A DNA stretch of 34,391 nucleotides from Thermoflexales bacterium (GTDB lineage: Bacteria > Chloroflexota > Anaerolineae > B4-G1 > DUEL01): positions 1 through 34,391 of the forward strand of contig JACIWQ010000004.1 of assembly GCA_014360895.1 (NCBI GenBank). Reading direction: 5' to 3'. Numbering within the stretch: position 1 is the stretch's first letter; each line of letters opens with the position of its first letter. The notes under the pieces are model-generated. The model searched no databases. It saw only the letters and a list, made by a program, of their open reading frames with translations, and was not told the DNA's origin. The translations under genes and the position numbers were made by a program. This document shows positions 17,947 through 31,698 of the stretch, piece by piece.

Positions 17947-18360
17947 ATGGCCGGTTACGAACCGAAAATCATCGGCTTCCTCTGCAACTGGTGCAGTTAC
18001 GCCGGGGCGGACCTGGCGGGCGCCACCCGATTGAAGTATCCCCCCAACCTGAAAATCATCCGTGTCCCCTGCTCCGGACGGGTCGCCCCGGAACTGGTCA
18101 TTCGGGCCTTCAAGGAAGGCGCCGATGGCGTGATGGTCCTGGGCTGCCACATCGGCGATTGTCACTACGCCACCGGCAACCACCGGACGGCCCGCCGGAT
18201 GCCCGTCCTGCGGGCGCTTCTGGAGTTTACCGGCATTGAGCCGGAGCGATTTCTGGTGAAGTGGGTCTCTTCCTCGGAAGGGGAACTCTTTGCCCAAACA
18301 GTGCGGGAATTCACCGAGCAGGTCCGCGCGCTCCCTCCCCTGCGGGATCGTCTGAAGTAA
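17947..18360 (+). CDS. mvhD: MvhD/FlpD-family iron-sulfur electron-transfer subunit (copy 1)
   Basis: The 137-aa product matches the MvhD (FlpD) [2Fe-2S] protein that carries electrons from a hydrogenase or formate dehydrogenase to HdrA. Conserved cysteines are C13 and C16 (LCNWCSYAGAD), C42 (PCSGR), C67 and C72 (GCHIGDCHY). Some relatives have Sec near the first site; here it is Cys. GGGAGGT precedes the ATG. It is first in the operon, 25 bases before lplA. A second copy at 24168-24581 is similar throughout, so the cluster may serve two electron donors or build alternative complexes. Confidence 0.94.
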   Translation: MAGYEPKIIGFLCNWCSYAGADLAGATRLKYPPNLKIIRVPCSGRVAPELVIRAFKEGADGVMVLGCHIGDCHYATGNHRTARRMPVLRALLEFTGIEPERFLVKWVSSSEGELFAQTVREFTEQVRALPPLRDRLK

Positions 18361-18385: not shown

Positions 18386-19426
18386 GTGAAACTCTACCGA
18401 CTGGAAACCGTCCCCTGGGCCGATTCCCAACTCCTCTACCATGCCCTTCCCCGCATCGGACGGGAAGGGCTGAACCTTCTATCCCCCGGGTCCCCCTACG
18501 TCTGCATCGGGTATTTCCAGGACGTGGAGCAGGAAGTGGACCTGGACTACTGCCGGGCGCACGGCATCCCGGTCTTCCGGCGGGAGGTGGGCGGAGGCGC
18601 CGTCTACCTGGATGGCGAACAACTCTTTTACCAGTTAATCATCCACCGGGATAACCCACTGGTCCCGAAGGACAAGGCATCGTTCTACCGGAAGTTTCTC
18701 CAGGCGCCCATCGCGGCCTACCGGGCCCTGGGTATCCCTGCCGAGTACAAACCGGTCAACGACATCATCGCCAACGGCCGCAAGATTTCCGGTAACGGCG
18801 TGGCGGAGATCGGCGACTACATCGTCTTCGTCGGCAACCTGATTGTGGATTTTGACTACGAGACGATGGTGCGGGTGCTGCGGGTGCCCGACGAGAAGTT
18901 CCGGGACAAGGTCTACAAGACCTTGCACGATAACCTCTCCACGATTCGGCGGGAACTGGGCACGGCACCGCCGCGCGAGGAACTCTGGAACCTGCTGGCA
19001 GAGAAGTTCATGGAAATTCTGGGCCCGCTGGAGGTGGAGATGACGGTGGACGCGGAGTGGCGGGCCGAGGCGGACCGGCTGGCTCAGCGGATGTTGACCG
19101 ACGAGTGGCTCCACCGCCGGGGTCGGCCGCAGATGGGCCGCGAGGTCACCATTCGCGCGGGCGTGCAGGTCTGGCAGAAGGCCTACAAGGCCCCCGGTGG
19201 CCTCATCCGGGCGGTCGCGGAGGTCCGCGAGGGCGTCATTGCCGACATCTCCCTCTCCGGCGACTTCTTCTTCTACCCCGCCGACCGGCTGGCCGACCTG
19301 GAGCGGGCACTGGTGGGGGGGCGGGTGGAGGAGGTGGAGAACGTCGTCGCCCGCTTCTACGCCGAGCAGGGCGTGGAGAGCCCCGGCGTGACCCCCGCCG
19401 ATTTCGCCACCGTCCTGCGCGGTTGA
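18386..19426 (+). CDS. lplA: Lipoate-protein ligase A
   Basis: The 346-aa enzyme should activate lipoate with ATP and attach it to a lysine of an acceptor protein. The catalytic domain shows RREVGGGAVY (residues 65-74) and the lipoyl-AMP-binding NDIIANGRKISGNG with K133. A complete LplA C-terminal accessory domain (about 240-346, ending in SGDFFFYPADRLADLERAL) is present, as in enzymes that do both steps. The start is GTG at 18386 after GGAGG. It lies between mvhD and hdrC, where a lipoate ligase is not an obvious member. Lipoate ligases are known to accompany Hdr-like sulfur oxidation (sHdr) systems that use a lipoate-binding protein; no such acceptor gene is seen here. Confidence 0.94.
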   Translation: MKLYRLETVPWADSQLLYHALPRIGREGLNLLSPGSPYVCIGYFQDVEQEVDLDYCRAHGIPVFRREVGGGAVYLDGEQLFYQLIIHRDNPLVPKDKASFYRKFLQAPIAAYRALGIPAEYKPVNDIIANGRKISGNGVAEIGDYIVFVGNLIVDFDYETMVRVLRVPDEKFRDKVYKTLHDNLSTIRRELGTAPPREELWNLLAEKFMEILGPLEVEMTVDAEWRAEADRLAQRMLTDEWLHRRGRPQMGREVTIRAGVQVWQKAYKAPGGLIRAVAEVREGVIADISLSGDFFFYPADRLADLERALVGGRVEEVENVVARFYAEQGVESPGVTPADFATVLRG

Positions 19427-19500: not shown

Positions 19501-20079
19501 ATGTCCGTCAACTCCGAAACCCTGGACCTCACCCACGTGGACCGGACCCTGGCCCAGCAGGTGACCCCCGGTCGCTGGGAGAAGATGCTCTCCTGCATCC
19601 AGTGCGGGACCTGTACCGCCTCATGTCCCGCCGCCCACGCGATGGACCTCTCCCCCCGCCGGATGTGGCGGATGGTTCAGTTAGGGATGACCGAAGAGGT
19701 CCTCCGTTCCAGGAGCATCTGGCTCTGCAGCCTCTGCTATACCTGCCACGTCCGCTGCCCGCGCGGGATCCCCCTCACGGAGACGATTGTCCGCCTGAAG
19801 GAACTGGCGATAGAGCGCGGCATCGTCTCCTCGCCCCAGAGCGGCGCCTTCTACCGGACCTTCGCCGAGGTGATGCGCCGCTACGGGCGGATGCGGGAGG
19901 TGGAGTTTATGGCCCGCTACTTCCTGGCTTCCAGCCCCCTGGCCGCGCTGGGCTTCGCCCGCCTGGGCCTGACAATGCTGGCACGGGGCAAAATCGGCCT
20001 GGAACTGCCCCGACTGGGCGGCGAGGGCCGGCTGGACCGGCTCTTCCAGCGGGTAGCTGAACTGGAGGCGCAGCGATGA
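19501..20079 (+). CDS. hdrC: Heterodisulfide reductase subunit C
   Basis: The 192-aa HdrC links HdrA to HdrB through two [4Fe-4S] clusters. Both motifs are complete: C32-C35-C38-C42 (CIQCGTCTASCP) and C76-C79-C82-C86 (CSLCYTCHVRCP). No membrane segment is seen, so it belongs to the soluble HdrABC type rather than HdrDE. The ATG at 19501 has GGAGGGAAAAGG before it. Its stop overlaps the hdrB start (ATGA at 20076-20079), showing translational coupling. Confidence 0.95.
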   Translation: MSVNSETLDLTHVDRTLAQQVTPGRWEKMLSCIQCGTCTASCPAAHAMDLSPRRMWRMVQLGMTEEVLRSRSIWLCSLCYTCHVRCPRGIPLTETIVRLKELAIERGIVSSPQSGAFYRTFAEVMRRYGRMREVEFMARYFLASSPLAALGFARLGLTMLARGKIGLELPRLGGEGRLDRLFQRVAELEAQR

Positions 20080-20957
20080 GGTACCGCTTCTACCCCGGAT
20101 GTTCGCAGGAAGGGACGGCGCGGGAGTACCGGGATTCCACGCTGGCGGTGCTGGAGGCGCTGGGCGCGGAGGTCCAGGAACTGGAGGACTGGACCTGCTG
20201 CGGGGCCAGCGTCGCCCCGGTGATGAGCGACCTGCTGGGATTGGTCCTCCCGGCCCGCAACCTGGCGCTGGCGGAACAGCAGGGCGACGGTCGGGACATG
20301 CTCACCGTCTGCAGCGCGTGCTACACCAACTTCCGCCGGACCGCCGCCACCCTGGCCGGAGACCGCAAACTCCACGAGACGGTCAACCGGGCCCTGGAGG
20401 TGGAGGGCCTGACCTACCGCGGGACGGTGACGGCCCGGCACATTCTGGACGTCCTGGCGAACGACTTCGGGCCGGAGGCGGTCCGGGCGCGGGTCCGGAA
20501 GCCCCTGGCAGGGCTGACCGTCGCCCCCTACTACGGCTGCCAGACGGTCCGCCCCTACAGTCCCTACGACAACCCCCAGCGCCCCACCTCTATGCTCCCG
20601 ATTCTGGAAGCGCTGGGAGCGAAGGTACACCGTCATCCCCGCGAAGCGTCCTGCTGCGGGACCTCGCTGCTGATGACCAAACCGGAGGTGGGCCTGACGA
20701 TGGCCGGCGCGGTGCTGGCGGCCTGCGAGGGCGCGGACTGCATCGTCACCGTCTGCCCGATGTGCCATATGAACCTGGACGCCTATCAGGATAAGGTCTC
20801 CCGGCTGCTGGGCCGGACGGTGCGCATCCCCGTCGTCCACCTGCCCCAACTGATGGGCCTGGCCTTCGGGCTGCCGGAGGAAATCCTGGGCCTCCGGCGC
20901 CACGTCACCCCGGTAAAGTTAACCGCAAAGAGCGCGAAGGACGCAAAGGAAAACTAA
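20076..20957 (+). CDS. hdrB: Heterodisulfide reductase subunit B
   Basis: The 293-aa HdrB is the disulfide-reducing subunit. It has two complete CCG domains for noncubane [4Fe-4S] clusters: C9, C41-C42, C79, C82 (CX31CCX36CX2C) and C155, C193-C194, C227, C230. In methanogens the substrate is CoM-S-S-CoB; in bacteria it is usually unknown. The final residues, about LTAKSAKDAKEN and the stop codon, are encoded by the left arm of a repeat unit starting at 20921, so the natural C-terminus has been replaced or extended. The next conserved gene, hdrA, is 568 bases away, past three repeat units and a GxxExxY gene. Confidence 0.95.
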   Translation: MRYRFYPGCSQEGTAREYRDSTLAVLEALGAEVQELEDWTCCGASVAPVMSDLLGLVLPARNLALAEQQGDGRDMLTVCSACYTNFRRTAATLAGDRKLHETVNRALEVEGLTYRGTVTARHILDVLANDFGPEAVRARVRKPLAGLTVAPYYGCQTVRPYSPYDNPQRPTSMLPILEALGAKVHRHPREASCCGTSLLMTKPEVGLTMAGAVLAACEGADCIVTVCPMCHMNLDAYQDKVSRLLGRTVRIPVVHLPQLMGLAFGLPEEILGLRRHVTPVKLTAKSAKDAKEN

Positions 20958-20996: not shown

Positions 20997-21433
20997 AACC
21001 GCAAAGAGAGCGAAGAACGCAGAGAAGTGGATGAGAACGCTCTTTCCAACCGGATTATTGGTGCTGCTCTGGAGGTTCATCGCCAGTTAGGGCCAGGTTT
21101 GCTGGAATCGGCTTATGAAGAGTGCCTGGCCTACGAATTGAGTCTGCACGGTATCCCATTTGAGCGGCAAAAGCCTATCCCAGTAGTTTACAAAGGCATC
21201 CGCTTGGATTGCGGTTTCCGGGTGGACCTGCTGGTAGATAACCTGGTCGTTGTGGAACTAAAGGCTGTAGACACTTTGATGCCCATTCATCAAGCACAGG
21301 TGCTGACATACTTGAAATTGACAGGATGTCGGTTGGGTTTGTTAATCAACTTTAATGTGGTCAGGCTGCGGGAAGGGATCAAGCGAGTCGTTCTAAACCT
21401 GTAACCTTCGCGCCCTTTGCGTCCTTTGCGGTT
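20997..21433. mobile_element. Repeat unit B: inverted repeats enclosing a GxxExxY gene
   Basis: The left arm (20997-21026, aaccgcaaagagagcgaaga...) and right arm (21405-21433, ...tttgcgtcctttgcggtt) are the same arms as in the short units A and C. Here the loop holds a complete GxxExxY gene whose GTG start directly follows the left arm and whose stop touches the right arm. Spacers to units A and C are 8 and 7 bases. The layout resembles a gene-bearing element next to two gene-less copies of the same termini. No target-site duplication is evident by eye. Confidence 0.75.
21027..21404 (+). CDS. GxxExxY protein (PD-(D/E)XK nuclease-like)
   Basis: The 125-aa product carries the motif that names the family: G24-L-L-E27-S-A-Y30. 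A possible nuclease core follows: D67 in RVDLLVD and E77-L-K79 in VVELKAVD, fitting D-X9-ExK. The family is assigned to PD-(D/E)XK-like folds; biological role is unknown. The start is GTG at 21027, just past the left repeat arm, with little ribosome-binding sequence. The gene is visibly more AT-rich in third positions than hdrB and hdrA around it, suggesting transfer. It is enclosed in repeat unit B and breaks the hdrB-hdrA order. Confidence 0.9.
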   Translation: MDENALSNRIIGAALEVHRQLGPGLLESAYEECLAYELSLHGIPFERQKPIPVVYKGIRLDCGFRVDLLVDNLVVVELKAVDTLMPIHQAQVLTYLKLTGCRLGLLINFNVVRLREGIKRVVLNL

Positions 21434-21525: not shown

Positions 21526-23484
21526 ATGGAACAACCCCGAATCGGCGTCTACATCTGCGAGTGCGGCGTCAACATCTCGGCGACGGTGGACACGAACGCG
21601 GTGGCGGAGATGGCGGCGAAACTCCCCGGCGTCGTTGTCGCCCGCGTCTACAAGTACATGTGCTCCGAGCCGGGCCAGTTGATGATCCAGGAGGACATCC
21701 GCAACCTGGGCCTGAACCGGATCGTCGTCGCGTCCTGCACCCCCCGGATGCACGAGACCACCTTCCAGCGGGCCCTGGAGACGGCGGGCCTCAACCCGTA
21801 CTACTTCCAGATGGCCAACATCCGGGAGCATGTCTCCTGGATCACCGACGACCGGGAGGCCGCCACGGAGAAGGCGAAGCGGCTGGTACGGGCCGCCGTC
21901 TTCCGGGTGCCGTACCAGGCCCCCCTGGAGCCCCGTCGGGAGCCGGTGGTGAAGGCCGCTCTGGTCGTCGGCGGCGGCATCGCGGGCATCCAGGCCGCCC
22001 TCTCCATCGCCGACGCGGGCTACCAGGTCTACCTGGTGGAACGGGAGCCCTCCATCGGCGGGCGAATGGCCCAACTGGATAAGACCTTCCCCACCCTGGA
22101 CTGCAGTACCTGAATTCTCGGCCCCAAGATGATGGATGCCGGTCGGCATCCCAACATCACCCTGCTCACCTACAGCGAAGTGGAGGCGGTCTCCGGCTAT
22201 GTGGGCAACTTCACCGTCCGCATCCGCAAGCGGGCCCGGTCGGTAGACGAGGAGAAGTGCACCGGCTGCGGCCTCTGCCAGGAGAAATGCCCCACGAAGG
22301 TCGTGGACACGGCCTACGAGGCCGGAATGGGCAAGCGGAAGGCCATCTACCGCCCCTTCTCCCAGGCCATCCCCAACATCCCCGTGATTGACCGGGAGAA
22401 CTGCCTCTTCTTCACGAAGGGCCGCTGCAAACTCTGCGAGAAGGTCTGCCCGGCGGGCGCGATTGACTACAACCAGCAGGACCAGTTGCTGGACGTGCAG
22501 GTGGGGGCCATCATTGTCGCCACGGGCTACGAGATGTGGGACCCCCGCAAACTCCCCCAGTACTCCTACGGCCTCTCGCCCAACATCATCACCGGCCTGC
22601 AGTTTGAGCGGCTGGTGAGCGCCACAGGTCCCACCGGCGGGCACATCGTCACCGCCGAAGGGAAGGAGCCGGAGCGGGTCGCCATCATCCACTGCGTCGG
22701 GAGCCGAGACGTCAACGCCCATCCTTACTGCTCCCGTTTCTGCTGCATGTACTCCCTGAAGCACGCGCACCAGGTCCGGGAGAAGACGGGCGCGCAGGTC
22801 TACGAGTTCTATATGGACATGCGGGCCTTCGGCAAGGGCTACGAGGAGTTCTACGAGCGGGTGCAGGAGGACGGCGTCATCTTCGTCCGGGGCCGGGGCG
22901 CCGAGGTGGAGGTCCTGCCCGACGGCAAACTGCGGGTCAAGGGCGAGGACGCGGACCTGGGGCGGCTGGTCTCAGTGGACGTGGACATGGTCATTCTGGC
23001 CTCGGCGATAGAGCCGCAACCGGACGCGGACCGGGTGGCGGCGATTTTCGGCCTGGGCCGGACGCCCGACGGCTGGTTTGCCGAGGCGCACCCCAAGTTG
23101 CGCCCCGCGGAGACGGCGACGGCGGGCATCTTCCTGGCGGGCTGTTGCCAGGGCCCCCGCGACATCCCCGATACCGTCTCCCACGCCGACGCGGCGGCGA
23201 TGCAGGTGGTCCGTCTCTTCAACCAAGGCGAAGTGACCATCTCGCCGACGGTCGCGGTGGTGGACGAGGTGAAGTGCGTGGGCTGCGGCGAGTGCATCCT
23301 GGCCTGCCCGTACTCGGCGATTGCCCGCAACCTGCGGGGCAAAGCGGAGGTCAACCCCGCCCTTTGCCAGGGCTGCGGCACCTGCGTCGCCACCTGCCCG
23401 TCGCACGCCATCACCGGCCTGCACTTCACCGACGAGCAGATTGTGGCGCAGATAGAGGGTCTGCTGGAAGGGGTGCTGGTGTAG
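21526..23484 (+). CDS. hdrA: Heterodisulfide reductase subunit A, selenoprotein (Sec196)
   Basis: Read through the in-frame TGA at 22111-22113, this is a 652-aa HdrA, the flavin subunit that bifurcates or confurcates electrons. Without read-through two fragments result. The N-terminal region has CEC (residues 11-13). The FAD Rossmann motif VVGGGIAGIQAA begins about 147, and IGGRMAQLDKTFPTLDCST leads into U196 followed by ILGPKMMDAG; this position is Cys or Sec in HdrA. Ferredoxin-type motifs follow: C245-C248-C251-C255, a second group in GRCKLCEKVCPAGAI, and two [4Fe-4S] sites at 583-630 (KCVGCGECILACP; LCQGCGTCVATCP). AAGGAG precedes the ATG. A SECIS-like hairpin lies at 22134-22151. Confidence 0.93.
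22134..22151 (+). promoter_or_regulatory. Predicted bacterial SECIS hairpin in hdrA
   Basis: A perfect 7-bp stem (ggatgcc/ggcatcc) encloses the loop ggtc, 27 bases after the TGA. Bacterial SECIS elements are hairpins shortly downstream of the UGA with G and U in the apical loop, recognised by SelB. Confidence 0.75.
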
Positions 23485-23578: not shown

Positions 23579-23593
23579 TTCGGGAGGGTGGCG

Positions 23594-24091
23594 ATGACGT
23601 ATGAGGAGTGGCTGCAGAGCGTGCCGCCGGAGATTACGGCCGACCCGCTCTGGCAGATGCGGGTGTACCGCTTGGCCCTCTTCGCGGGCGACCTGGGCTG
23701 GCACGACGTCTCCATACTGGCCCAGGATGCCCGAACGCGCGGTCTGGCCGACCAGTTGTATCGGGCCCTGGGCTCCATTGCCGCCAACATCGTCGAAGGG
23801 TACAGCCGCCACTCCGGGAAAGAACGGGCCCGCTTCTACGAATACGCCCTGGGCTCCGCGCGCGAGGCCCGGACCTGGTACTACGAAGGGCGACACGGCC
23901 TGCGGGACGCGGTCGTAGACCACCGGCTCCGCCTGCTCACCCAGATTGTCCGCCTGCTCCTCTCCATCATCCCCGCGGAGCGAGAAACGACCGGTATCCT
24001 GCAACTGCGGGAAGGGAGCGGGCTCTATCTCTACAGCACCGACCCCGATACCGAACTCTCCCAACTTCTGAGCGAAGTCCCTATGCCATAA
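23594..24091 (+). CDS. Four helix bundle protein (S23/Avd-like)
   Basis: The 165-aa product is all-helical and matches four helix bundle proteins, the family that includes 23S rRNA intervening-sequence proteins and diversity-generating-element accessory protein Avd. The diagnostic region is LADQLYRALGSIAANIVEGYSR (residues about 50-73) followed by ERARFYEYALGSAREARTWY. I chose the ATG at 23594, with GGGAGG six bases upstream, over GTG at 23588. It lies between hdrA and the second mvhD, with arrays of the same short repeat on both sides. No reverse transcriptase or template repeat is nearby, so there is no sign of a diversity-generating element. Function unknown. Confidence 0.82.
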   Translation: MTYEEWLQSVPPEITADPLWQMRVYRLALFAGDLGWHDVSILAQDARTRGLADQLYRALGSIAANIVEGYSRHSGKERARFYEYALGSAREARTWYYEGRHGLRDAVVDHRLRLLTQIVRLLLSIIPAERETTGILQLREGSGLYLYSTDPDTELSQLLSEVPMP

Positions 24092-24167: not shown

Positions 24168-24581
24168 ATGTTTGAACCCCGAATTGTCGCTTTCTTGTGC
24201 AACTGGTGCTCCTACGCCGGAGCGGACAACGCCGGCATCGCGCGGATGAAGTCGCCGCCGAACATCCTGCCCATCCGGGTGATGTGCTCCGGGCGGGTCT
24301 CGCCGGAGATGATTCTGCGGGCCTTCCGCGCCGGCGCCGACGGCGTCCTGGTGCTGGGCTGCCACATCGGCGACTGCCACTACATCAACGGAAACCACCG
24401 CACCGCGAAGCGCATCCCGCTCCTGCGCAACCTGCTGGCCTACGTGGGCATCAACCCCCAGCGGCTGCGGCTGGACTGGGTCTCCTCGGCGGAGGCGCCG
24501 AAGTTCGCCCAGGTCACCGCCGAATTCGTGGAGACGGTCCGCGCCCTGGGGCCCATCAAGGACGAATTGGGCCTAAAGTGA
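24168..24581 (+). CDS. mvhD: MvhD/FlpD-family iron-sulfur electron-transfer subunit (copy 2)
   Basis: The 137-aa product is a close paralogue of the first MvhD, with C11, C14 (LCNWCSYAGAD), C40, C65 and C70 in the expected places. It should pass electrons to HdrA. It follows hdrA in the cluster, separated only by the four-helix-bundle insertion. The repeat array directly upstream leaves no obvious ribosome-binding site, so translation may depend on coupling or be weak. A strong hairpin overlaps the stop codon, so the Hdr transcript probably ends here. Confidence 0.93.
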   Translation: MFEPRIVAFLCNWCSYAGADNAGIARMKSPPNILPIRVMCSGRVSPEMILRAFRAGADGVLVLGCHIGDCHYINGNHRTAKRIPLLRNLLAYVGINPQRLRLDWVSSAEAPKFAQVTAEFVETVRALGPIKDELGLK

Positions 24582-24616: not shown

Positions 24617-24635
24617 GGACAACATTGGCTATAAT
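24607..24635 (+). promoter_or_regulatory. Promoter of the toxin-antitoxin island
   Basis: A perfect TATAAT (24630-24635) has a weaker -35, TTTACT (24607-24612), at a 17-base spacing. The -35 overlaps the tail of the preceding terminator. The alternative TTGGAC is only 9 bases away and is not credible. Confidence 0.6.
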
Positions 24636-24653
24636 TGGATTGCGTTAGCCAAT
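24624..24653. promoter_or_regulatory. Inverted repeat over the -10 region (candidate antitoxin operator)
   Basis: The 8-bp arms attggcta (24624-24631) and tagccaat (24646-24653) are exact reverse complements with a 14-bp spacer. The left arm overlaps the TATAAT, and the antitoxin start is 18 bases downstream, as expected for autoregulation by a Phd-type antitoxin. Confidence 0.65.
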
Positions 24654-24670
24654 TAGGGGGGGGTCAAGGG

Positions 24671-24952
24671 ATGCCCACGGTCATATCGGCGACGGAGGCG
24701 AAGAACCGTTTCGGGGAGGTCATCCGCCGGGTCTACCGGGACGGCGAGACCTTCATCGTGGAGCGGGACGGTCTCCCGGTGGTAATGATTGTGCCGGTGC
24801 GAGAGACGGCAATGGCCAGTCTCCGGCGATTTGCGCGCGCGGTTCGGGCCGCGGCTCAGGAAGCCGAGACGCTGGGAATCACCGAGGAGGGCGTGGAGCA
24901 GAGCGTAGAGGAAATCCGGGAGGAACTCCACCGGGAGCGCTGGGGTGGGTAG
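24671..24952 (+). CDS. Phd/YefM-type antitoxin
   Basis: The 93-aa product has the Phd/YefM N-terminal DNA-binding fold (VISATEAKNRFGEVIRRVYRDGETFIVERDGLPVVMIVP) and a charged C-terminal toxin-binding tail. It should bind the PIN toxin encoded next and repress its own promoter. I start it at the ATG at 24671 because the family begins with this sequence; an earlier TTG at 24635 falls within the promoter. It opens a run of seven small overlapping or closely spaced genes of toxin-antitoxin type. Confidence 0.87.
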   Translation: MPTVISATEAKNRFGEVIRRVYRDGETFIVERDGLPVVMIVPVRETAMASLRRFARAVRAAAQEAETLGITEEGVEQSVEEIREELHRERWGG

Positions 24953-24968
24953 AGGACCGTTGCGGGTT

Positions 24969-25454
24969 ATGGCGGATACCAACATCCTCATCAGCGGCGT
25001 GATTTTCCCTCGCGCGGCCTATGAGTTCCTGCGACATGCTTTGCGAGGGGACTTCACCCTGGTCGTCTCGGAACAAATCTTGGCCGAAGTACGCCGCTGG
25101 ATGGAGAAGAAAGCGACACCGCTCCAGCGCGCTGCGCTGGAGGTTTTCCTGGAAGAGGGGGCCTTTGAGATTGTACCGGATCCCCCCGCAGAGGAAATTC
25201 GTCAGCATACTAACCTGGTGAGGGATGTCAAAGATATTCCGATCGTCCTCGCTGCGATACAAGCGGGCGTAGATTTCCTTGTCACCAACGACCAGGATTT
25301 GATCGCCGAAGGTGAGACAACGGCTCTGCTCCGCCGCTACGTATCCCCGATGCATGTAGTAACCTTTCTACGTGAAGTGATGGGCTGGAGCCCGGAGGAA
25401 CTGGAGGCGGTCCGGCAACGGACGTGGGAGGAGGTAGAAGATGAGACTGCATAA
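24969..25454 (+). CDS. PIN-domain toxin (VapC-like)
   Basis: The 161-aa reading has a PIN domain: first acidic residue in MADTNILISGV, a conserved Glu in SEQILAEVRRW, and TNDQDL near the C-terminal part of the domain. These acidic residues bind Mg2+ in RNase toxins. The start is uncertain: ATG at 24969 gives the usual family N-terminus, while TTG at 24960 and GTG at 24945 are in frame and would overlap the antitoxin gene. It overlaps the HicB-like gene by 14 bases. Paired with the Phd-type antitoxin upstream. Confidence 0.85.
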   Translation: MADTNILISGVIFPRAAYEFLRHALRGDFTLVVSEQILAEVRRWMEKKATPLQRAALEVFLEEGAFEIVPDPPAEEIRQHTNLVRDVKDIPIVLAAIQAGVDFLVTNDQDLIAEGETTALLRRYVSPMHVVTFLREVMGWSPEELEAVRQRTWEEVEDETA

Positions 25455-25683
25455 ACTGCCCCTTGTATTTGAGCCTCAGCCGGAAGGCGGATACACGGTG
25501 ACCTGCCCGCTGATTCCGGAACTGATCACCGAAGGGGATACCGTTGAGGAGGCGCTGGAGAACGTCCGGGATGCCTTGGTTGCAGTGATGGAGGCCTGTG
25601 AGGACCTGAATCGTCCTGTGCCGCCAATTTTACAGCATTTGGCAGATGTTAGCCCGCCATTCGGCACTCCAGCAACTCTGTGA
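25441..25683 (+). CDS. HicB-like antitoxin-type protein
   Basis: The 80-aa product matches the HicB N-terminal fold: LPLVFEPQPEGGYTVTCPLIPEL, then EEALENVRDALVAVMEAC. HicB normally neutralises HicA, but no HicA gene is next to it; its neighbours are a PIN toxin gene (14-bp overlap) and a nucleotidyltransferase gene (38-bp overlap). No C-terminal DNA-binding domain is visible. It may be an orphan or may have adapted to one of the neighbouring toxins. Confidence 0.83.
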   Translation: MRLHKLPLVFEPQPEGGYTVTCPLIPELITEGDTVEEALENVRDALVAVMEACEDLNRPVPPILQHLADVSPPFGTPATL

Positions 25684-26071
25684 ATCCTTCGGCGTGGACA
25701 TCCTCTACGCCTTCGGCAGCCGGGCCGGGGAGGTCCGGGCCTGGCTGGAAGGGAAGGCTGATGCGCTTGCCCCCGGCCCTTCGGATGTGGATATCGGGGT
25801 GAAGCCCGCGCGGGGGGTTCACCTCTCCGTCCACGACAAGGTCCGGCTGGCGGTCGCGCTGGAGGACCTCCTCGGCGTCCACCGGGTGGACCTGGTTTCG
25901 CTGGACGACGCGGACCCCTTTCTGGCGGCGGAGATTATCCGGGGCGAGCGCCTCTACGCCCGCGACGAGGACGACGCCGACGAGTACGACCTCTACGTCC
26001 TGCGCCGCGCGGGGGACCTGGCCCCGCTGGAGCGGGAACGGCTCGCGTTGATTCTGGGAGAGGCGGTATGA
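25646..26071 (+). CDS. MntA-like minimal nucleotidyltransferase antitoxin
   Basis: The 141-aa product has the nucleotidyltransferase pattern, with GS at residues 24-25 (YAFGSRAGEV) and the metal-binding pair D47-D49 (SDVDIGV), then HRVDLVSL carrying a third Asp. In MntA antitoxins the toxin HepT is inactivated by AMP transfer. The gap between GS and DXD is 21 residues rather than the usual 10, because of an extra stretch RAWLEGKADALAPG. It overlaps the HicB-like gene at its start and the HepT gene by 4 bases at its end. Confidence 0.86.
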   Translation: MLARHSALQQLCESFGVDILYAFGSRAGEVRAWLEGKADALAPGPSDVDIGVKPARGVHLSVHDKVRLAVALEDLLGVHRVDLVSLDDADPFLAAEIIRGERLYARDEDDADEYDLYVLRRAGDLAPLERERLALILGEAV

Positions 26072-26526
26072 CGCCCGGCAAAATCTCCCAGCGGGTGGTG
26101 GCGGACCGGCTGGCCTGGGTGGAGCGGATGCTGGGGGAAATCCGCTCCCTTCCGCTGGCCGACCGGGAGGCCTTCTTCGCCGACCGGCGCAACCTGTGGG
26201 CGGCGGAATCCTGCCTGCGGCGGGCGCTGGAGGCGCTGCTGGACCTGGGCCGGCACATCCTGGCGAAGGGTTTCGGTGTCGGAGTGACGGAGTACAGGGA
26301 AATCGCGGCAGCCCTGGGAGAGCGCGACGTTCTCTCTCCCGACGAGGTGGCCCTCTTGAGAACATTGGCCGGATACCGGAACCGGCTGGTCCACTTCTAC
26401 CACGAAGTGAGTCCGGAGGAACTCTACGAGATTTGTCGCCAGCGCCTGAGCGACGTGGAGGAAATCGCGGCGGCATACCGGCGCTGGCTGGGAGAGCATC
26501 CGGAATGGCTGAACGAACGGCTGTAG
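26068..26526 (+). CDS. HepT-like HEPN ribonuclease toxin (DUF86)
   Basis: The 152-aa helical protein matches HepT. The catalytic RX4H motif is R104-NRLV-H109, and Y111 completes RX4HXY, where the tyrosine is the AMPylation target in studied MntA/HepT pairs. It should cleave RNA (tRNA in known cases) when not AMPylated. It overlaps the MntA-like gene upstream by 4 bases, the usual order and coupling, and the next nucleotidyltransferase gene by 22 bases. Confidence 0.9.
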   Translation: MTPGKISQRVVADRLAWVERMLGEIRSLPLADREAFFADRRNLWAAESCLRRALEALLDLGRHILAKGFGVGVTEYREIAAALGERDVLSPDEVALLRTLAGYRNRLVHFYHEVSPEELYEICRQRLSDVEEIAAAYRRWLGEHPEWLNERL

Positions 26527-26882
26527 GGTTTCCCGCTGTGATTCGGGCCCGAGGCTTCCCGGAAGTGGACGCCCAGGCCTTTCGCGCGCTGGTCCAGCGG
26601 CTGGTCAAAGCGCTGCACCCAGAGAAAATCATCCTTTTCGGGTCTTACGCCCGGGGCACCGCCACAACCGACAGCGACGTGGACCTGCTGGTCGTGATGG
26701 AAACCGGCGATCCTCCTGTTGAGCGATACCTGAAAGTATCTCGCCTGTTGCGCCCCCGTCCCTTTCCGGTAGACATCCTGGTCAAGACTCCGGAGGAAAT
26801 CCAACAGGCATTAGCGAAGGGGGATTTTTTCATCCGGGAAATTCTCCAGCACGGTCTGGTTCTGTATGAGCGCCATCCTTGA
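26505..26882 (+). CDS. Minimal nucleotidyltransferase (second MNT)
   Basis: The 125-aa product has the canonical GSX10DXD motif: G46-S47 in ILFGSYARGTA and D58-D60 in SDVDLLVV, with a later Asp in FPVDILV. It belongs to the MNT group usually coupled to HEPN proteins. The ATG at 26505 lies inside the HepT gene; GTG at 26538 is an alternative. It overlaps the downstream HEPN gene by 17 bases. Base composition is less GC-rich than the redox genes around the island. Confidence 0.87.
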   Translation: MAERTAVGFPAVIRARGFPEVDAQAFRALVQRLVKALHPEKIILFGSYARGTATTDSDVDLLVVMETGDPPVERYLKVSRLLRPRPFPVDILVKTPEEIQQALAKGDFFIREILQHGLVLYERHP

Positions 26883-27252
26883 CCCAAAAGCATGGGTTGC
26901 CAGAGCCGAGGAGGATTACCGGCTGGCCCAATCAGCGTTGCGCCGGAAGCGGCCGTTGTTGTACGGTGCCTGCTTTCACGCCCAACAGTGCGCCGAGAAA
27001 TATCTGAAAGCCTTGCTGGTTCTCCGTGAACGAGACTTTCCGAAGACGCATGACCTGACCGCCTTGGTCGCTCTGTGTGAAGAGGTGGGCATCATCGTGC
27101 CCGTCCATCCGGACGACCTGGACCGGCTCTCCGCTTATGCTGTCGGCGTCCGCTATCCGGGCGAGGAACCCCTTCCAGAAGAAGCCCGGGCGGCCGTGCA
27201 AATAGCGGGAAAAGTCCGGCGGTTCGCCCGCCGATTGCTGGGACTCAAATAA
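26866..27252 (+). CDS. HEPN domain protein (second MNT/HEPN pair)
   Basis: The 128-aa product has the HEPN pattern LLYGACFHAQQCAEKYLKALL and KTHDLTALV. Unlike the HepT protein upstream it lacks a clear RX4-6H catalytic motif, so it may bind nucleotides or a partner without cutting RNA, or use other residues. It overlaps the second nucleotidyltransferase gene by 17 bases and closes the island; the iron-sulfur gene of the redox cluster starts 21 bases later. Confidence 0.88.
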   Translation: MSAILDPKAWVARAEEDYRLAQSALRRKRPLLYGACFHAQQCAEKYLKALLVLRERDFPKTHDLTALVALCEEVGIIVPVHPDDLDRLSAYAVGVRYPGEEPLPEEARAAVQIAGKVRRFARRLLGLK

Positions 27253-27273: not shown

Positions 27274-28098
27274 ATGGCTCCAAACGACCTTCTGGACACC
27301 CTGCGCGCCCACGTGGCGGAGAAACTCCCCGAACTGGACGGCGTCGTTGGCCTGCGGCGGACCGTCGTGGGCACCGCGCCGCATCTCTTCCGCCAGGGGG
27401 ACGACCTCTCCGAACTGGTCCTCTTCCCCCGCTACCCCCTGGCCCCGGTGGTCTCCCTGCTCCAGAAGCGCTACCCGCAGGCCCGCTTCGGCATCGTCGC
27501 CCGCGCCTGCGACCTGCGCGCGCTGGTGGAGATGGCCAAGCGGAACCAAGTGGACCCCGACCGGCTCTACATCCTGGGGGTCGCCTGCACCGCAGAGGAG
27601 GCGGAAGAGTGCCACTGCGACGCCTCCTTCCCGAAGACGGAGGGCTGGCCGCAGGCGGTGGCGTTGGGGACGCCATCTCCCGCCGGCTCGCCCAATCCCA
27701 TCATCGCCCGGTATGAGACGATGGGCCTGGCGGAGCGCTGGGCCTTCTGGCGGGAACAGTTCGCCAAGTGCATCAAATGCTACGGCTGCCGCAACATCTG
27801 CCCGGAGTGCTTCTGCGAGGCCTGCGCGCTGGAGGACCCGTTGTGGGTGGAGCCGGGGGTGCTGGCCCCGCCCTTCCCGTCCTTCCACCTCATCCGAGCC
27901 ATGCACATGGCGACCCGCTGCGTCGGCTGCCGCCAGTGCGAGTTGACCTGCCCGGCCCACATCCCGCTGACCGTCCTCTACGACCTCCTGCGGCGGGACG
28001 TAGCGGAACTGCTGAGCTACGAAGTCGGCGCCGACCTCTTCGCCGCCCCGCCGCTCTCGCTGACGCTGGCCGACGCGCCGATTGTAGAGGTGGAGTGA
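27274..28098 (+). CDS. FrhB/FdhB-like iron-sulfur subunit with two [4Fe-4S] motifs
   Basis: The 274-aa protein probably transfers electrons between formate dehydrogenase and the MvhD-Hdr complex. Residues about 50-110 (YPLAPVVSLLQKRYPQARFG, ACDLRALVEMAKRNQVD, LGVAC) resemble the FrhB/FdhB and related N-terminal region. Cysteine groups follow at C166-C169-C172-C176 (CIKCYGCRNICP) with C179, C181 and C184 nearby, and C216-C219-C222-C226 (CVGCRQCELTCP). Whether it binds a flavin or cofactor F420 cannot be decided. GAGGAG lies nine bases before the ATG. It is upstream of fdhA with a YgiT-type gene between them. Confidence 0.85.
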   Translation: MAPNDLLDTLRAHVAEKLPELDGVVGLRRTVVGTAPHLFRQGDDLSELVLFPRYPLAPVVSLLQKRYPQARFGIVARACDLRALVEMAKRNQVDPDRLYILGVACTAEEAEECHCDASFPKTEGWPQAVALGTPSPAGSPNPIIARYETMGLAERWAFWREQFAKCIKCYGCRNICPECFCEACALEDPLWVEPGVLAPPFPSFHLIRAMHMATRCVGCRQCELTCPAHIPLTVLYDLLRRDVAELLSYEVGADLFAAPPLSLTLADAPIVEVE

Positions 28099-28589: not shown

Positions 28590-30659
28590 ATGGACTACCG
28601 AAACATCCTCACCGTCTGCCCGTACTGCGGGGCCGGTTGCGGCCTCTACCTGCAGGTCCTGGACGGAGAGATTGTCGGCGTGCTGCCGGCTAAAGAGCAC
28701 CCCGTCAGCGAGGGGAAACTCTGCATCAAGGGCTGGAACGCCGCCGCCTTCGTCCACCACCCGGACCGGCTGACAACCCCCCTCATCCGGGAGGGCAACG
28801 CCTTCCGGGAGGCATCCTGGGACGAGGCGCTGGGCCTGGTCGCGGAGCAGTTGCTCCACATCCGCGATACCTACGGCCCCGACGCCCTGGGCTTCCTGGT
28901 CTCCGCCAAGTGCACCAACGAGGAGAACTACCTGGCCCAGAAACTGGCCCGCGCCGTCTTTAAGACCAACAACGTGGACCACTGCGCCCGTCTCTGACAC
29001 TCCCCCACGGTGGCCGGTCTGGCCGCCGCGTTCGGCAGTGGCGCGATGACCAACTCCACCCCGGAGTTCAGCCAGTACACCCGGTGCTTCCTTATCACCG
29101 GCTCCAACACCACTGAGGCCCATCCCCTGGTCGCCAGCCACGTCCTGAAGGCGAAGGAGCGGGGCGCGAAAGTGGTCGTGATTGACCCGCGCGAGGTGCA
29201 GATCGGCCGCCTGGCCGACCTCTACCTGCGCCCCCGCCCCGGCACCGACGTCGCCTGGCTCAACGGCCTGATGTACGTCATCGTCACCGAGGAGTTGGCC
29301 GACCAGGAGTTCATAGAGAAGCGGACCGAGGGGTTTGAGGAGATGTGGCGGGTGGTCCAGCAGTACCCGCCGGAGCGGGTGGAAGAAATCACCGGCATCC
29401 CCGCGGACGACCTGCGGGCCGCGGCGCGGATGTACGCCCAGAACAAACCCGCCGCCATCCTCTACGCGATGGGCATCACCCAGCACACCACCGGCGTGGA
29501 CAACGTCAAGAGCATCGCCAACCTGGCTATGCTCACCGGCAACCTGGGCATCCCCGGCGGCGGCGTCAACCCCCTGCGGGGCCAGAACAACGTCCAGGGC
29601 GCCTGCGACATGGGTGGTCTCCCCAACGTCTACCCGGCCTACCAGCCCGTCACCTCGCCGGAGGCGAAGGCCAAATTTGAGGCCGCCTGGGGCGTGGAGG
29701 GCCTCTCCGACCGGATCGGCCTGACCGTCGTGGAGATGGTGAACGCGGCGGGGGAGGGGCGGCTGCGGGGCCTCTTCGTAATGGGCGAAAACCCCATGCT
29801 CTCCGACCCCGACATCCAGCACGCGCGGGAGTGTTTGGAGAGACTGGAGTTCCTGGTGGTGCAGGACATTTTCCTCACCGAGACGGCCCAACTGGCCCAT
29901 GTGGTCCTTCCGGGGGCGTCGTTCGCCGAGAAGGACGGCACCTTCACCGCCACCGACCGGCGCATCCAGCGGGTGCGGAAGGCCGTGGAGCCGCCGGGCC
30001 AGGCGAAGGCCGACTGGGAAATCCTCTGTGAACTGGCCAAGCGTCTTACGCAACACGCAATACGCAATACGCAGTGGGACTATCCCTCCCCGGCCGAAAT
30101 CATGTCCGAAATCGCCCGCGTCGCGCCCTCCTACGGCGGCGTCACCTACGAGCGGCTGGACCGGGAGGGCTCCCTCCAGTGGCCCGTCCCGTCGGTAGAC
30201 CATCCCGGCACGCCGTACCTGCACAAGGAGAAGTTCACCCGGGGCCTGGGCCGCTTCCACGCCATAGAGTTCCAGGAGGCGGCGGAACTGCCCGACGAGG
30301 AGTACCCGTTCATCCTCACCACGGGCCGCATGATGTTCCAGTTCCACACCGGAACGATGACCCGCCGGTCGCCCAAACTGGAGCAGGAGGCGCCGGAGCC
30401 CTACGTGGAGATGAATCCCGAGGACGCGGCCCGCATCGGCCTGGACGGCACGCGGCGGGTGCGGGTGGTCAGCCGCCGGGGCGCCATTGAGGTCGCCGTC
30501 CGGCTGACGGAGCGCATCCGGCCCGGCGTTGTCTTCATCCCCTTCCACTACGCAGAGGCCGCGGCCAACGTCCTCACCCACGCCGCGCTGGACCCCGTCG
30601 CCAAAATCCCGGAGTACAAGGTCTGCGCGGTGCGGGTGGAACCGGTGGGGGAAAAGTGA
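28590..30659 (+). CDS. fdhA: Formate dehydrogenase alpha subunit, selenoprotein (Sec136)
   Basis: Read through the TGA at 28995-28997, this is a 689-aa molybdopterin (bis-MGD) formate dehydrogenase. The N-terminal [4Fe-4S] motif is C10-C13-C17-C45 (CPYCGAGC). U136 is in [18 protein letters not shown], aligned with the Sec of E. coli FdhF (CARVUHGPSVAGL). Molybdopterin domains follow ([37 protein letters not shown]) and a C-terminal MGD-binding domain ([20 protein letters not shown]). It is the short cytoplasmic type without NuoG-like extensions. An in-frame repeat insertion (THAIRNTQ-like, near residues 486-495) interrupts a loop. A SECIS-like hairpin follows the TGA. It should interconvert formate and CO2. 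Confidence 0.95.
29008..29028 (+). promoter_or_regulatory. Predicted bacterial SECIS hairpin in fdhA
   Basis: An 8-bp stem (cggtggcc/ggccgccg, one G-U pair) carries the apical loop ggtct. The loop begins 18 bases after the TGA, the same distance and loop sequence as in E. coli fdhF. Confidence 0.9.
30047..30074. repeat. 'acgcaatacg' repeat copy inside fdhA
   Basis: tacgcaacacgcaatacgc followed by aatacgcag lies in frame and encodes about nine residues (TQHAIRNTQ) between an otherwise normal ELAKRL and YPSPAEIM. It is the same motif as the intergenic copies. Confidence 0.85.
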
Positions 30660-30707: not shown

Positions 30708-31049
30708 ATGCACGAACTCTCCGTCACCCAATCTATTCTGGACATCGCCCTGGCCCACGCGCAGGGGGCCGGGGCGAGTCGTATTCTGAAGGTGAATCTG
30801 GTCATCGGGGAACTCTCCGGGCTGGTGGGGGAGTACATCCAGTTCTATTTTGACTTCGTCAGCAAGGGGACCCCGGCGGAGGGGGCGGAGTTGACTTTCC
30901 GGCGCGTGCCCGCGCGCTTCCGCTGCCTGGACTGCGGGGCGGAGTACGAGCCCGACGGGGACGACTGGACCTGTCCGGTATGCGGCGCGCTGCGGCCCAT
31001 CGCCGTCGGGGGGAAGGAACTGCTGGTGGAGAGCATAGAGGTGGAGTGA
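30708..31049 (+). CDS. hypA: HypA/HybF nickel metallochaperone
   Basis: The 113-aa product has the nickel-binding N-terminus MHE and a zinc finger with C73, C76, C89 and C92 (CLDC...CPVC), so it should deliver nickel to a [NiFe] hydrogenase large subunit. No hydrogenase or other hyp gene is in the window. It lies between fdhA and mobA, co-directional, which suggests that hydrogenase maturation or a hydrogenase linked to this formate/Hdr complex is encoded elsewhere. No clear ribosome-binding site because of the repeat upstream. Confidence 0.95.
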   Translation: MHELSVTQSILDIALAHAQGAGASRILKVNLVIGELSGLVGEYIQFYFDFVSKGTPAEGAELTFRRVPARFRCLDCGAEYEPDGDDWTCPVCGALRPIAVGGKELLVESIEVE

Positions 31050-31104
31050 GGGGGGCAGAGGGGCGGAGGAACAGGAGAGCAGAGGGGCGGAGGAGCCGGG
31101 GACG

Positions 31105-31698
31105 GTGGAGCGGTTACCGGTGACAGGCGTGGTGCTGGCGGGTGGGACCAGCCGACGGATGGGGAAGGATAAGGCCTTCCTGGAACTGGGGAGCCGCCCG
31201 CTGATTGCCCACGTCCTGGACCGGATGGCCGGGGTTTGCGACGAGGTGCTGGTGGTGGCGAACGACATCCCCCGATATGCCGGGCTGGGCGCCCGCGTGG
31301 TGCCGGACGTGTTCCCCGGCGTGGGGGTCCTGGGCGGCCTGCACGCGGGGCTCCGGGCGGCCCAGCACGACCTGATCCTGGCCGTCGGCTGCGATATGCC
31401 CTTCCTGAACCCGGACCTCCTGCGGGCCTTCGCGGCCTGGGCGGAGGGGTACGACGTCGTCGCGCTCCGGCGGGGAGAGCAGGTGGAGACCCTCCATGCG
31501 GCCTACCGACGCACCTGTCTCCCGGCAATGGAGGCCGCCATTCGGGCCGGTGAACGGCGGATCATCTCCTTTTTCCCGCATGTCCGGGTCCGTTACATGG
31601 CTCCAGAAGAGACCGAAGCGCTGGACCCAGGCCTGCGCTCTTTTCGCAACGTCAATACCCCCGAGGAGTGGGAAGAGGTACTGCGGTTGTTGGGATAA
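31105..31698 (+). CDS. mobA: Molybdenum cofactor guanylyltransferase
   Basis: The 197-aa enzyme should attach GMP to molybdopterin to form the MGD cofactor needed by FdhA. Motifs: LAGGTSRRMGKDKAFLELG (residues 11-29, GTP binding with K23), VGCDMPFLNPDLL with the metal-binding Asp near 98, and NVNTPEEW near the C-terminus. The start is GTG at 31105; GTG at 31120 is a shorter option. It follows hypA after 55 bases of purine-rich short repeats and probably belongs to the same transcript as fdhA. Confidence 0.94.
   Translation: MERLPVTGVVLAGGTSRRMGKDKAFLELGSRPLIAHVLDRMAGVCDEVLVVANDIPRYAGLGARVVPDVFPGVGVLGGLHAGLRAAQHDLILAVGCDMPFLNPDLLRAFAAWAEGYDVVALRRGEQVETLHAAYRRTCLPAMEAAIRAGERRIISFFPHVRVRYMAPEETEALDPGLRSFRNVNTPEEWEEVLRLLG

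Follow-up and report, generated by a model that had tools for sequence, protein, structure and literature searches.

The window analyzed here, positions 1 to 34,391 of contig JACIWQ010000004.1 from a Thermoflexales bacterium (source assembly, 3.57 Mb in 262 contigs, 96% complete), contains on its plus strand an operon with the gene order mvhD, lplA, hdrC, hdrB, hdrA, mvhD, a gene for an iron-sulfur protein in the FdhB position, and fdhA, with predicted selenocysteine residues in HdrA and FdhA. In what follows, G000 is the source genome, other G-numbers are relatives, and L-numbers are loci. The first mvhD copy (17947-18360), of the FlpD family, matched PF02662 with 179.8 bits, and the second (24168-24581) with 178.7 bits. 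The lplA gene (18386-19426) starts with GTG 25 bases past the first mvhD, with a GGAGG-like sequence ahead of the start codon, and encodes a protein of 346 amino acids with a catalytic (PF21948, 138 bits) and a C-terminal (PF10437) domain. The sequence-only reading had placed a full-length lipoate-protein ligase at exactly this distance from mvhD and ahead of hdrC, hdrB, and hdrA, and domains, motifs, and open reading frame coordinates all agree with it. HdrC (19501-20079) has two CxxCxxCxxxC motifs and scored 90 bits against TIGR03290, below the cutoff of 160. In HdrB (20076-20957), PF02754 was matched in two stretches, and both CCG (noncubane cluster) motifs are complete, at residues 9 and 155. 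HdrA (21526-23484; 652 amino acids) has Fer4 and FAD domains and scored 836 bits against NF040770 (HdrA2; cutoff, 1100). The databases give only 4Fe-4S motifs for the iron-sulfur protein (27274-28098), which occupies the same place in loci L034 and L042; its position is what suggests the name FdhB. FdhA (28590-30659), the formate dehydrogenase alpha subunit, matched the whole of TIGR01591 with 904.9 bits and has Pfam molybdopterin domains. The open reading frames downstream of fdhA (30708-31698) resemble hypA and mobA, as judged by eye.

Both hdrA and fdhA are interrupted by an in-frame TGA codon, at 22111-22113 and 28995-28997, respectively. These codons, and that of an hdrA gene on another contig of the source genome (G000:C68:8339-10309), are predicted to be read as selenocysteine. 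A broken hdrA, represented by the open reading frames 21526-22113 and 22129-23484, was considered and rejected, because the two parts are in the same frame, the codon between them is TGA, the genome has a tRNA-Sec (C198:23522-23616; 70.7 bits), and the split of the window hdrA recurs at an identical position in the C68 hdrA of the source genome and in that of a congener.

Several small passenger genes lie within the operon (21027-21404, 23588-24091, and 24635-27252). They encode a PD-(D/E)XK_3 protein, a protein of the 23S-IVP family, Phd/YefM and PIN proteins, and two nucleotidyltransferase/HEPN pairs. The PD-(D/E)XK_3 (GxxExxY-type) gene, located between hdrB and hdrA (21027-21404; PF13366, 157.7 bits), is probably one such passenger. 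Among these small genes, the IVP gene alone was found at the same place in L042.

A bifurcating HdrABC-MvhD complex, the type that the sequence-only reading had assigned, is predicted from the FAD and ferredoxin domains of HdrA, the two CCG motifs of HdrB, and the presence of HdrC, MvhD, and a module for electron input. Such CCG motifs characterize the sites at which HdrB cleaves disulfides. Two complete CCG motifs are present not only in HdrB but also in each of the HdrCB and HdrD proteins described below.

An RRxxGGG motif and a lysine are the catalytic marks of lipoate-protein ligases. In the LplA of the window, the motif is found at residues 65 to 71 and the lysine at position 133, within GRKISG; both arginines, the GGG, and lysine 133 were invariant in all 60 aligned homologues. 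Together with the catalytic and C-terminal domains, these residues place the protein among the lipoate-protein ligases, as do its relatives in the PDB, although its score against NCBIfam TIGR00545 (143.6 bits) is below the cutoff of 280. In a tree built with a quick method, it fell within a well-supported set of 21 rows; the tree resolves that set and not the deeper order, and two long rows in it are meaningless. About a dozen genomes of family f3 have a related LplA in two separate frames (approximately residues 38 to 258 and 265 to 342), a bipartite LplA/LplB-like arrangement of which G041:C24:21002-21896 and G044:C478:4326-5202 are examples.

Orthologues of LplA with at least 56% identity were found in 36 of 119 relatives (one, in G108, partial); the other matches spanning most of LplA had at most 46% identity. 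The neighborhoods of 36 loci were compared, from 35 of the 36 genomes with an orthologue (G108 was left out, and G093 contributes two loci). Within 5 kb of lplA, an Hdr-type gene was present at 22 of the 36 loci, a gene for a GcvH-related protein designated LbpA-like was present at 14, and either was present at 24. Neither was found within that distance at the remaining 12 loci, 4 of which are on contigs shorter than 8 kb. The association of lplA with hdr genes recurs in several families, which rejects the possibility that it is confined to the source strain. Recurring orders were cytochrome b-HdrD-LplA, LbpA-LplA, and LplA-HdrC-HdrB-HdrA. Two congeneric genomes (L129 and L034) share the order mvhD-lplA-hdrC-hdrB-hdrA, and a third (L130) shares mvhD-lplA. 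Within the genus, lplA is part of the formate-type operon in G000, G001, and G002 and lies beside mvhD in G004; in G006, it instead precedes a hydrogenase-type HdrCB-HdrA.

The most complete arrangement was that of G011 (L042/L153), in which a single cluster has the order HdrA-MvhD-LbpA-cytochrome b-HdrD-LplA-HdrC-HdrB-HdrA-MvhD. The order in the window is that of G011 minus LbpA-cytochrome b-HdrD between mvhD and lplA, and those functions are encoded on contig C68 of the source genome. Loss or relocation of these genes would be the simplest reading of the difference.

Clustering of the lplA neighbors identified the LbpA-like protein, a GcvH homologue of about 143 amino acids whose gene immediately precedes lplA in several genomes. 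In the source genome, the gene (C68:4799-5233; PF01597, 125.9 bits) and lplA are on different contigs. On the minus strand of C68, the order is an HdrCB fusion, HdrA (with the TGA codon), MvhD, the small and large subunits of a NiFe hydrogenase, LbpA-like, cytochromes, and HdrD. The cytochromes are a multiheme c/b cytochrome followed by a multiheme cytochrome c with a nitrate-reductase-gamma/DsrM-type cytochrome b. The same order is found in a congener (L105).

The lipoyl-lysine motif ESGKWVGR, in which the lysine is K68, was invariant in all 22 aligned LbpA-like rows. An AlphaFold2 model of the protein (pLDDT, 94) has the H-protein fold, with a TM score of 0.95 to 1onl, and its best PDB matches are glycine-cleavage H-proteins, including the H-protein in the Escherichia coli LplA-apoH complex (3a7a). 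Fold and lysine thus identify a lipoyl protein of the GcvH fold. The score against the model for ordinary GcvH (TIGR00527, 99.3 bits) is below the cutoff of 115.85, and that against the subfamily model NF002270 (132 bits) passes the cutoff of 117. A 61-sequence tree split the canonical GcvH proteins, 23 of its 24 GcvH-labeled rows, from LbpA-like proteins and cysteine-bearing LbpAs with branch support of 98/94, and 28 of 29 LbpA-like rows grouped together with moderate support (87/88). The 24th GcvH-labeled row, encoded on contig C252 of the source genome, formed a long branch on the LbpA side. The fold and the matches to GcvH profiles might indicate a carrier of one-carbon or other units in a glycine-cleavage-like pathway, with Hdr only reoxidizing the dithiol in place of dihydrolipoamide dehydrogenase. 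This seems very improbable, as no gcvT or gcvP was noticed beside LbpA-like genes among the open reading frames that were read, and a dihydrolipoamide dehydrogenase is encoded elsewhere, beside another GcvH-like gene.

The LplA of the window is not the only ligase of the source genome. A second is encoded on contig C9, in an LplA-LipT-LipS2-LipS1 cluster (LipS1, 231 bits against NF053742, cutoff 230; LipS2, 227 bits against NF053743, cutoff 270). The lipoate pathway known from sHdr organisms thus appears to be present, with the LplA of the window as an additional enzyme, and the C9 ligase may carry out or share the lipoylation of LbpA. Also found were an ordinary gcvH on C253, lipA on C183, a LipB/LplA-domain transferase on C230, and a third GcvH-like gene (L250, on C252), which has an ETMKT lysine motif and adjoins a gene for dihydrolipoamide dehydrogenase. 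GcvH and the C252 protein are other possible acceptors of lipoate. No match to the E2 subunit of 2-oxoacid dehydrogenases (PF00198) was found in the source genome (10 of 14 control genomes were positive), and no DsrC was found in a search of the same genome. The lipoate acceptors of the source genome are thus not just the ordinary ones, since E2 was not found and a divergent GcvH-like protein is encoded on C68.

In sHdr-type sulfur oxidation, the gene order is shdrC1B1A-hyp-C2B2. Conceivably, the LbpA-like protein carries sulfur as the LbpA of such a system, operating in oxidation or reduction, and the Hdr proteins handle sulfane sulfur bound to lipoate. The C9 cluster resembles that of sHdr organisms, and the ESGKWVG motif is common to the LbpA-like proteins and the cysteine-bearing LbpAs of L060, L062, and L065, which fall on the same side of the tree. 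However, the LbpAs of sHdr systems are described as having two conserved cysteines, some archaeal proteins excepted (PMC6067878), whereas the LbpA-like protein of the source genome has none and neither do 21 of the 22 aligned rows; L191 and L197, LbpA-like proteins of other phyla, do carry a cysteine. In addition, the neighbors are HdrABC-MvhD of the hydrogenase or formate type and HdrD, with a full-length HdrA and with MvhD, formate dehydrogenase, or hydrogenase as partners, and no gene for TusA, DsrE, or rhodanese was noticed by eye in the open reading frame lists near lbpA or lplA of the source genome. We consider a role in sulfur transfer unlikely. Pairs of cysteine-bearing LbpA genes adjoin LplA at L060, L062, and L065 (in G097, G106, and G095), and L060 and L062 contain Hdr-like matches at other positions; these loci are probably true relatives of the sHdr type within the same class.

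The distributions of the two genes were compared in the 119 genomes, with the threshold between LbpA-like and GcvH matches set by eye at a gap (169 versus 123 bits). Both the LplA orthologue and the LbpA-like gene were present in 32 genomes, LplA only in 4 (G001, G006, G010, and G108), LbpA only in 7 (G003, G005, G017, G025, G031, G077, and G105), and neither in 76 (Fisher test, 6e-18, with genomes counted without phylogenetic correction). After collapsing to 45 families, the counts were 12, 0, 2, and 31, respectively (3e-9). In five of the LbpA-only genomes (G003, G005, G017, G025, and G031), the only ligase is of the C9 type, which indicates that the window type of LplA is not strictly required.

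These distributions bear on the possibility that LplA scavenges lipoate in general, on behalf of GcvH and other enzymes, and that its place in an hdr operon is incidental. The other acceptors and lipoate enzymes of the source genome, and the 12 loci at which neither an Hdr gene nor lbpA lies within 5 kb of lplA, would be in keeping with such a function. However, GcvH or LbpA matches were found in 116 of the 119 relatives, whereas the window type of LplA is present in only 36 and tracks the LbpA-like gene. With the recurrence of the lplA-hdr neighborhood and the lack of E2 matches in the source genome also speaking against it, a scavenger function is distinctly unlikely.

The LbpA alignment was also scanned against 84,980 species, each represented by one genome, which yielded 155 confirmed loci. 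The best 80, chosen by LbpA sequence alone, were examined; by record title, 54 were from Chloroflexota or other groups, 18 were delta-, Pseudo-, or Thermodesulfobacterial, and 8 were from Bacillota. Among these best 80 loci, an Hdr-type gene was within 5 kb at 69 (48/54, 14/18, and 7/8, respectively), LplA at 27, and cytochrome b at 36. At control gcvH loci of the same relatives, Hdr genes were nearby at only 1 of 22; short contigs occur in both sets. At this one control locus (L227, in G099:C70), HdrA-like matches start some 90 bases away from the GcvH, which belongs to family f20. An even draw across the phylum gave an LbpA-like gene in 4 of 400 genomes, which indicates that the system is patchy rather than general. 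LbpA-like genes and DsrC were rarely found together (2 of 39 versus 20 of 80 genomes; P = 0.01, a weak result obtained without phylogenetic correction). Records of Syntrophaceae, Syntrophobacterales, and Syntrophomonadaceae are among the best 80 loci, so that the system may be connected with reverse electron transport in syntrophy.

The genes, their order and co-occurrence, the H-protein fold, and the intact catalytic motifs are observed directly, and from them we infer lipoylation, complex formation, and electron transfer together with its direction. LplA, either by itself or jointly with the C9 system, would load octanoate or lipoate onto the LbpA-like protein, a dedicated carrier with the GcvH fold, and the CCG (HdrB-type) sites would have the lipoyl disulfide of LbpA as their thiol/disulfide partner. 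The carrier would be reduced by the formate-linked FdhBA-MvhD-HdrABC of the window and by the H2-linked MvhAGD-HdrA-HdrCB of C68, with the same complexes pushing other electrons to ferredoxin. A membrane complex of HdrD, cytochrome b, and multiheme cytochrome c would then exchange the electrons of the carrier with menaquinone or periplasmic hemes. Given the potentials of formate (-0.43 V), ferredoxin (about -0.5 V), lipoamide (-0.29 V), and menaquinone (-0.08 V), bifurcation from formate would be slightly exergonic, and passing the electrons on to menaquinone would be distinctly exergonic. Confurcation, in which the electrons run the other way, is just as plausible.

That lipoyl-LbpA is a protein-bound disulfide carrier between the bifurcating HdrABC-MvhD and the membrane HdrD-type complex is, judging from sequence evidence, probable. 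It is supported by the gene context on C68, the G011 cluster, the co-occurrence of the two genes, the contexts of the LplA and LbpA loci, the fold and lipoyl motif, the CCG motifs, and the finding of neither E2 nor DsrC. The carrier function is weakened by the separation of lplA and lbpA in the source genome, the LplA loci with neither neighbor, the genomes with LbpA and no LplA of the window type, the presence of the C9 ligase, the other acceptors, and the low frequency in the even draw. The sequence-only reading had suggested lipoamide or a lipoylated H-like protein as the partner of HdrB; the H-like protein has a candidate in the divergent GcvH-like protein of the hydrogenase-Hdr operon outside the window, electron transfer to it is a prediction, and its ligase may be that of C9. 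Free lipoate and dihydrolipoate are reported to be without effect on the MetVF-Hdr complex of Sporomusa ovata, as part of a study in which free disulfide compounds were tried without success (PMC9430772). This result counts to some extent against LbpA, and its bearing is limited because a lipoyl protein differs from the free acid and MetVF-Hdr is a different complex.

The substrate of HdrB in most nonmethanogenic bacteria is unsettled, and a ligase, a lipoyl carrier, a soluble Hdr, and a membrane HdrD together make a concrete candidate. If this proposal is correct, it answers what HdrB reduces in bacteria without coenzyme M/coenzyme B and without DsrC, and lipoate joins the cofactors of anaerobic energy conservation. 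The broader proposition is that lipoyl-LbpA represents a "heterodisulfide" of a third type, in which protein-bound lipoamide would link the soluble, bifurcating oxidation of formate or H2 to an HdrD-type complex of the membrane in Chloroflexota, Thermodesulfobacteriota, and Bacillota; we regard the chances of this proposition as evenly balanced.

In methanogens, MvhADG/Fdh-HdrABC and HdrDE use CoM-S-S-CoB. Lipoyl-LbpA would be a protein-bound counterpart of this heterodisulfide, or of DsrC. As in the methanogens, a thiol/disulfide carrier would be shared by two complexes, a bifurcating Hdr in the cytosol and an HdrD-type complex in the membrane, except that the carrier would be a lipoylated protein. 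In the DsrC/DsrMKJOP system of sulfate reducers, a protein-borne cysteine disulfide or trisulfide is used by a membrane CCG protein. The proposed system would likewise have a protein-borne carrier, a membrane CCG protein (DsrK-like), and a DsrM-like cytochrome b, without the DsrC that the search of the source genome did not find.

Marine Chloroflexi have the same formate-linked arrangement, HdrBCA-MvhD-FdhBA with a selenocysteine-containing FdhA, and the description of that gene set mentions neither a ligase nor a lipoyl protein (PMC5736913). For the Ehe cluster of Culexarchaeia, which contains HdrA2B2C2 and GcvH, it has been suggested that GcvH could hold the disulfide for HdrB, with the Hdr disulfide itself described as unknown (PMC9723716). 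That case differs from the system of the window in being archaeal, with a group 4 hydrogenase, and in being a single cluster, in the account of which no ligase or membrane HdrD is mentioned (PMC9723716). Titles and opening lines of abstracts in the open-license PMC literature yielded no description of a lipoate ligase or LbpA-like protein with bacterial HdrABC-MvhD, the Culexarchaeia suggestion being the nearest.

The closest experimental precedent is the sHdr-LbpA system of sulfur oxidation, in which LbpA, sLpl(AB), and LipS1/LipS2 take part (PMC6067878, PMC10332631) and whose lipoate pathway has been noted in Chloroflexota as well (PMC10332631). In both cases, a GcvH-like lipoate-binding protein, a dedicated ligase, and Hdr-type proteins are encoded together, and the source genome has a LipS1/LipS2/LipT-like cluster. 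Unlike sHdr, the system described here has a predicted bifurcating HdrABC-MvhD that is paired with formate dehydrogenase or NiFe hydrogenase, a membrane HdrD in addition, and a carrier that lacks the two conserved cysteines and belongs to a different branch of the tree. What the present analysis adds to these systems is the dedicated ligase and the mostly cysteine-free carrier family, which is proposed to couple to Hdr modules of the soluble as well as the membrane type and which recurs across phyla.
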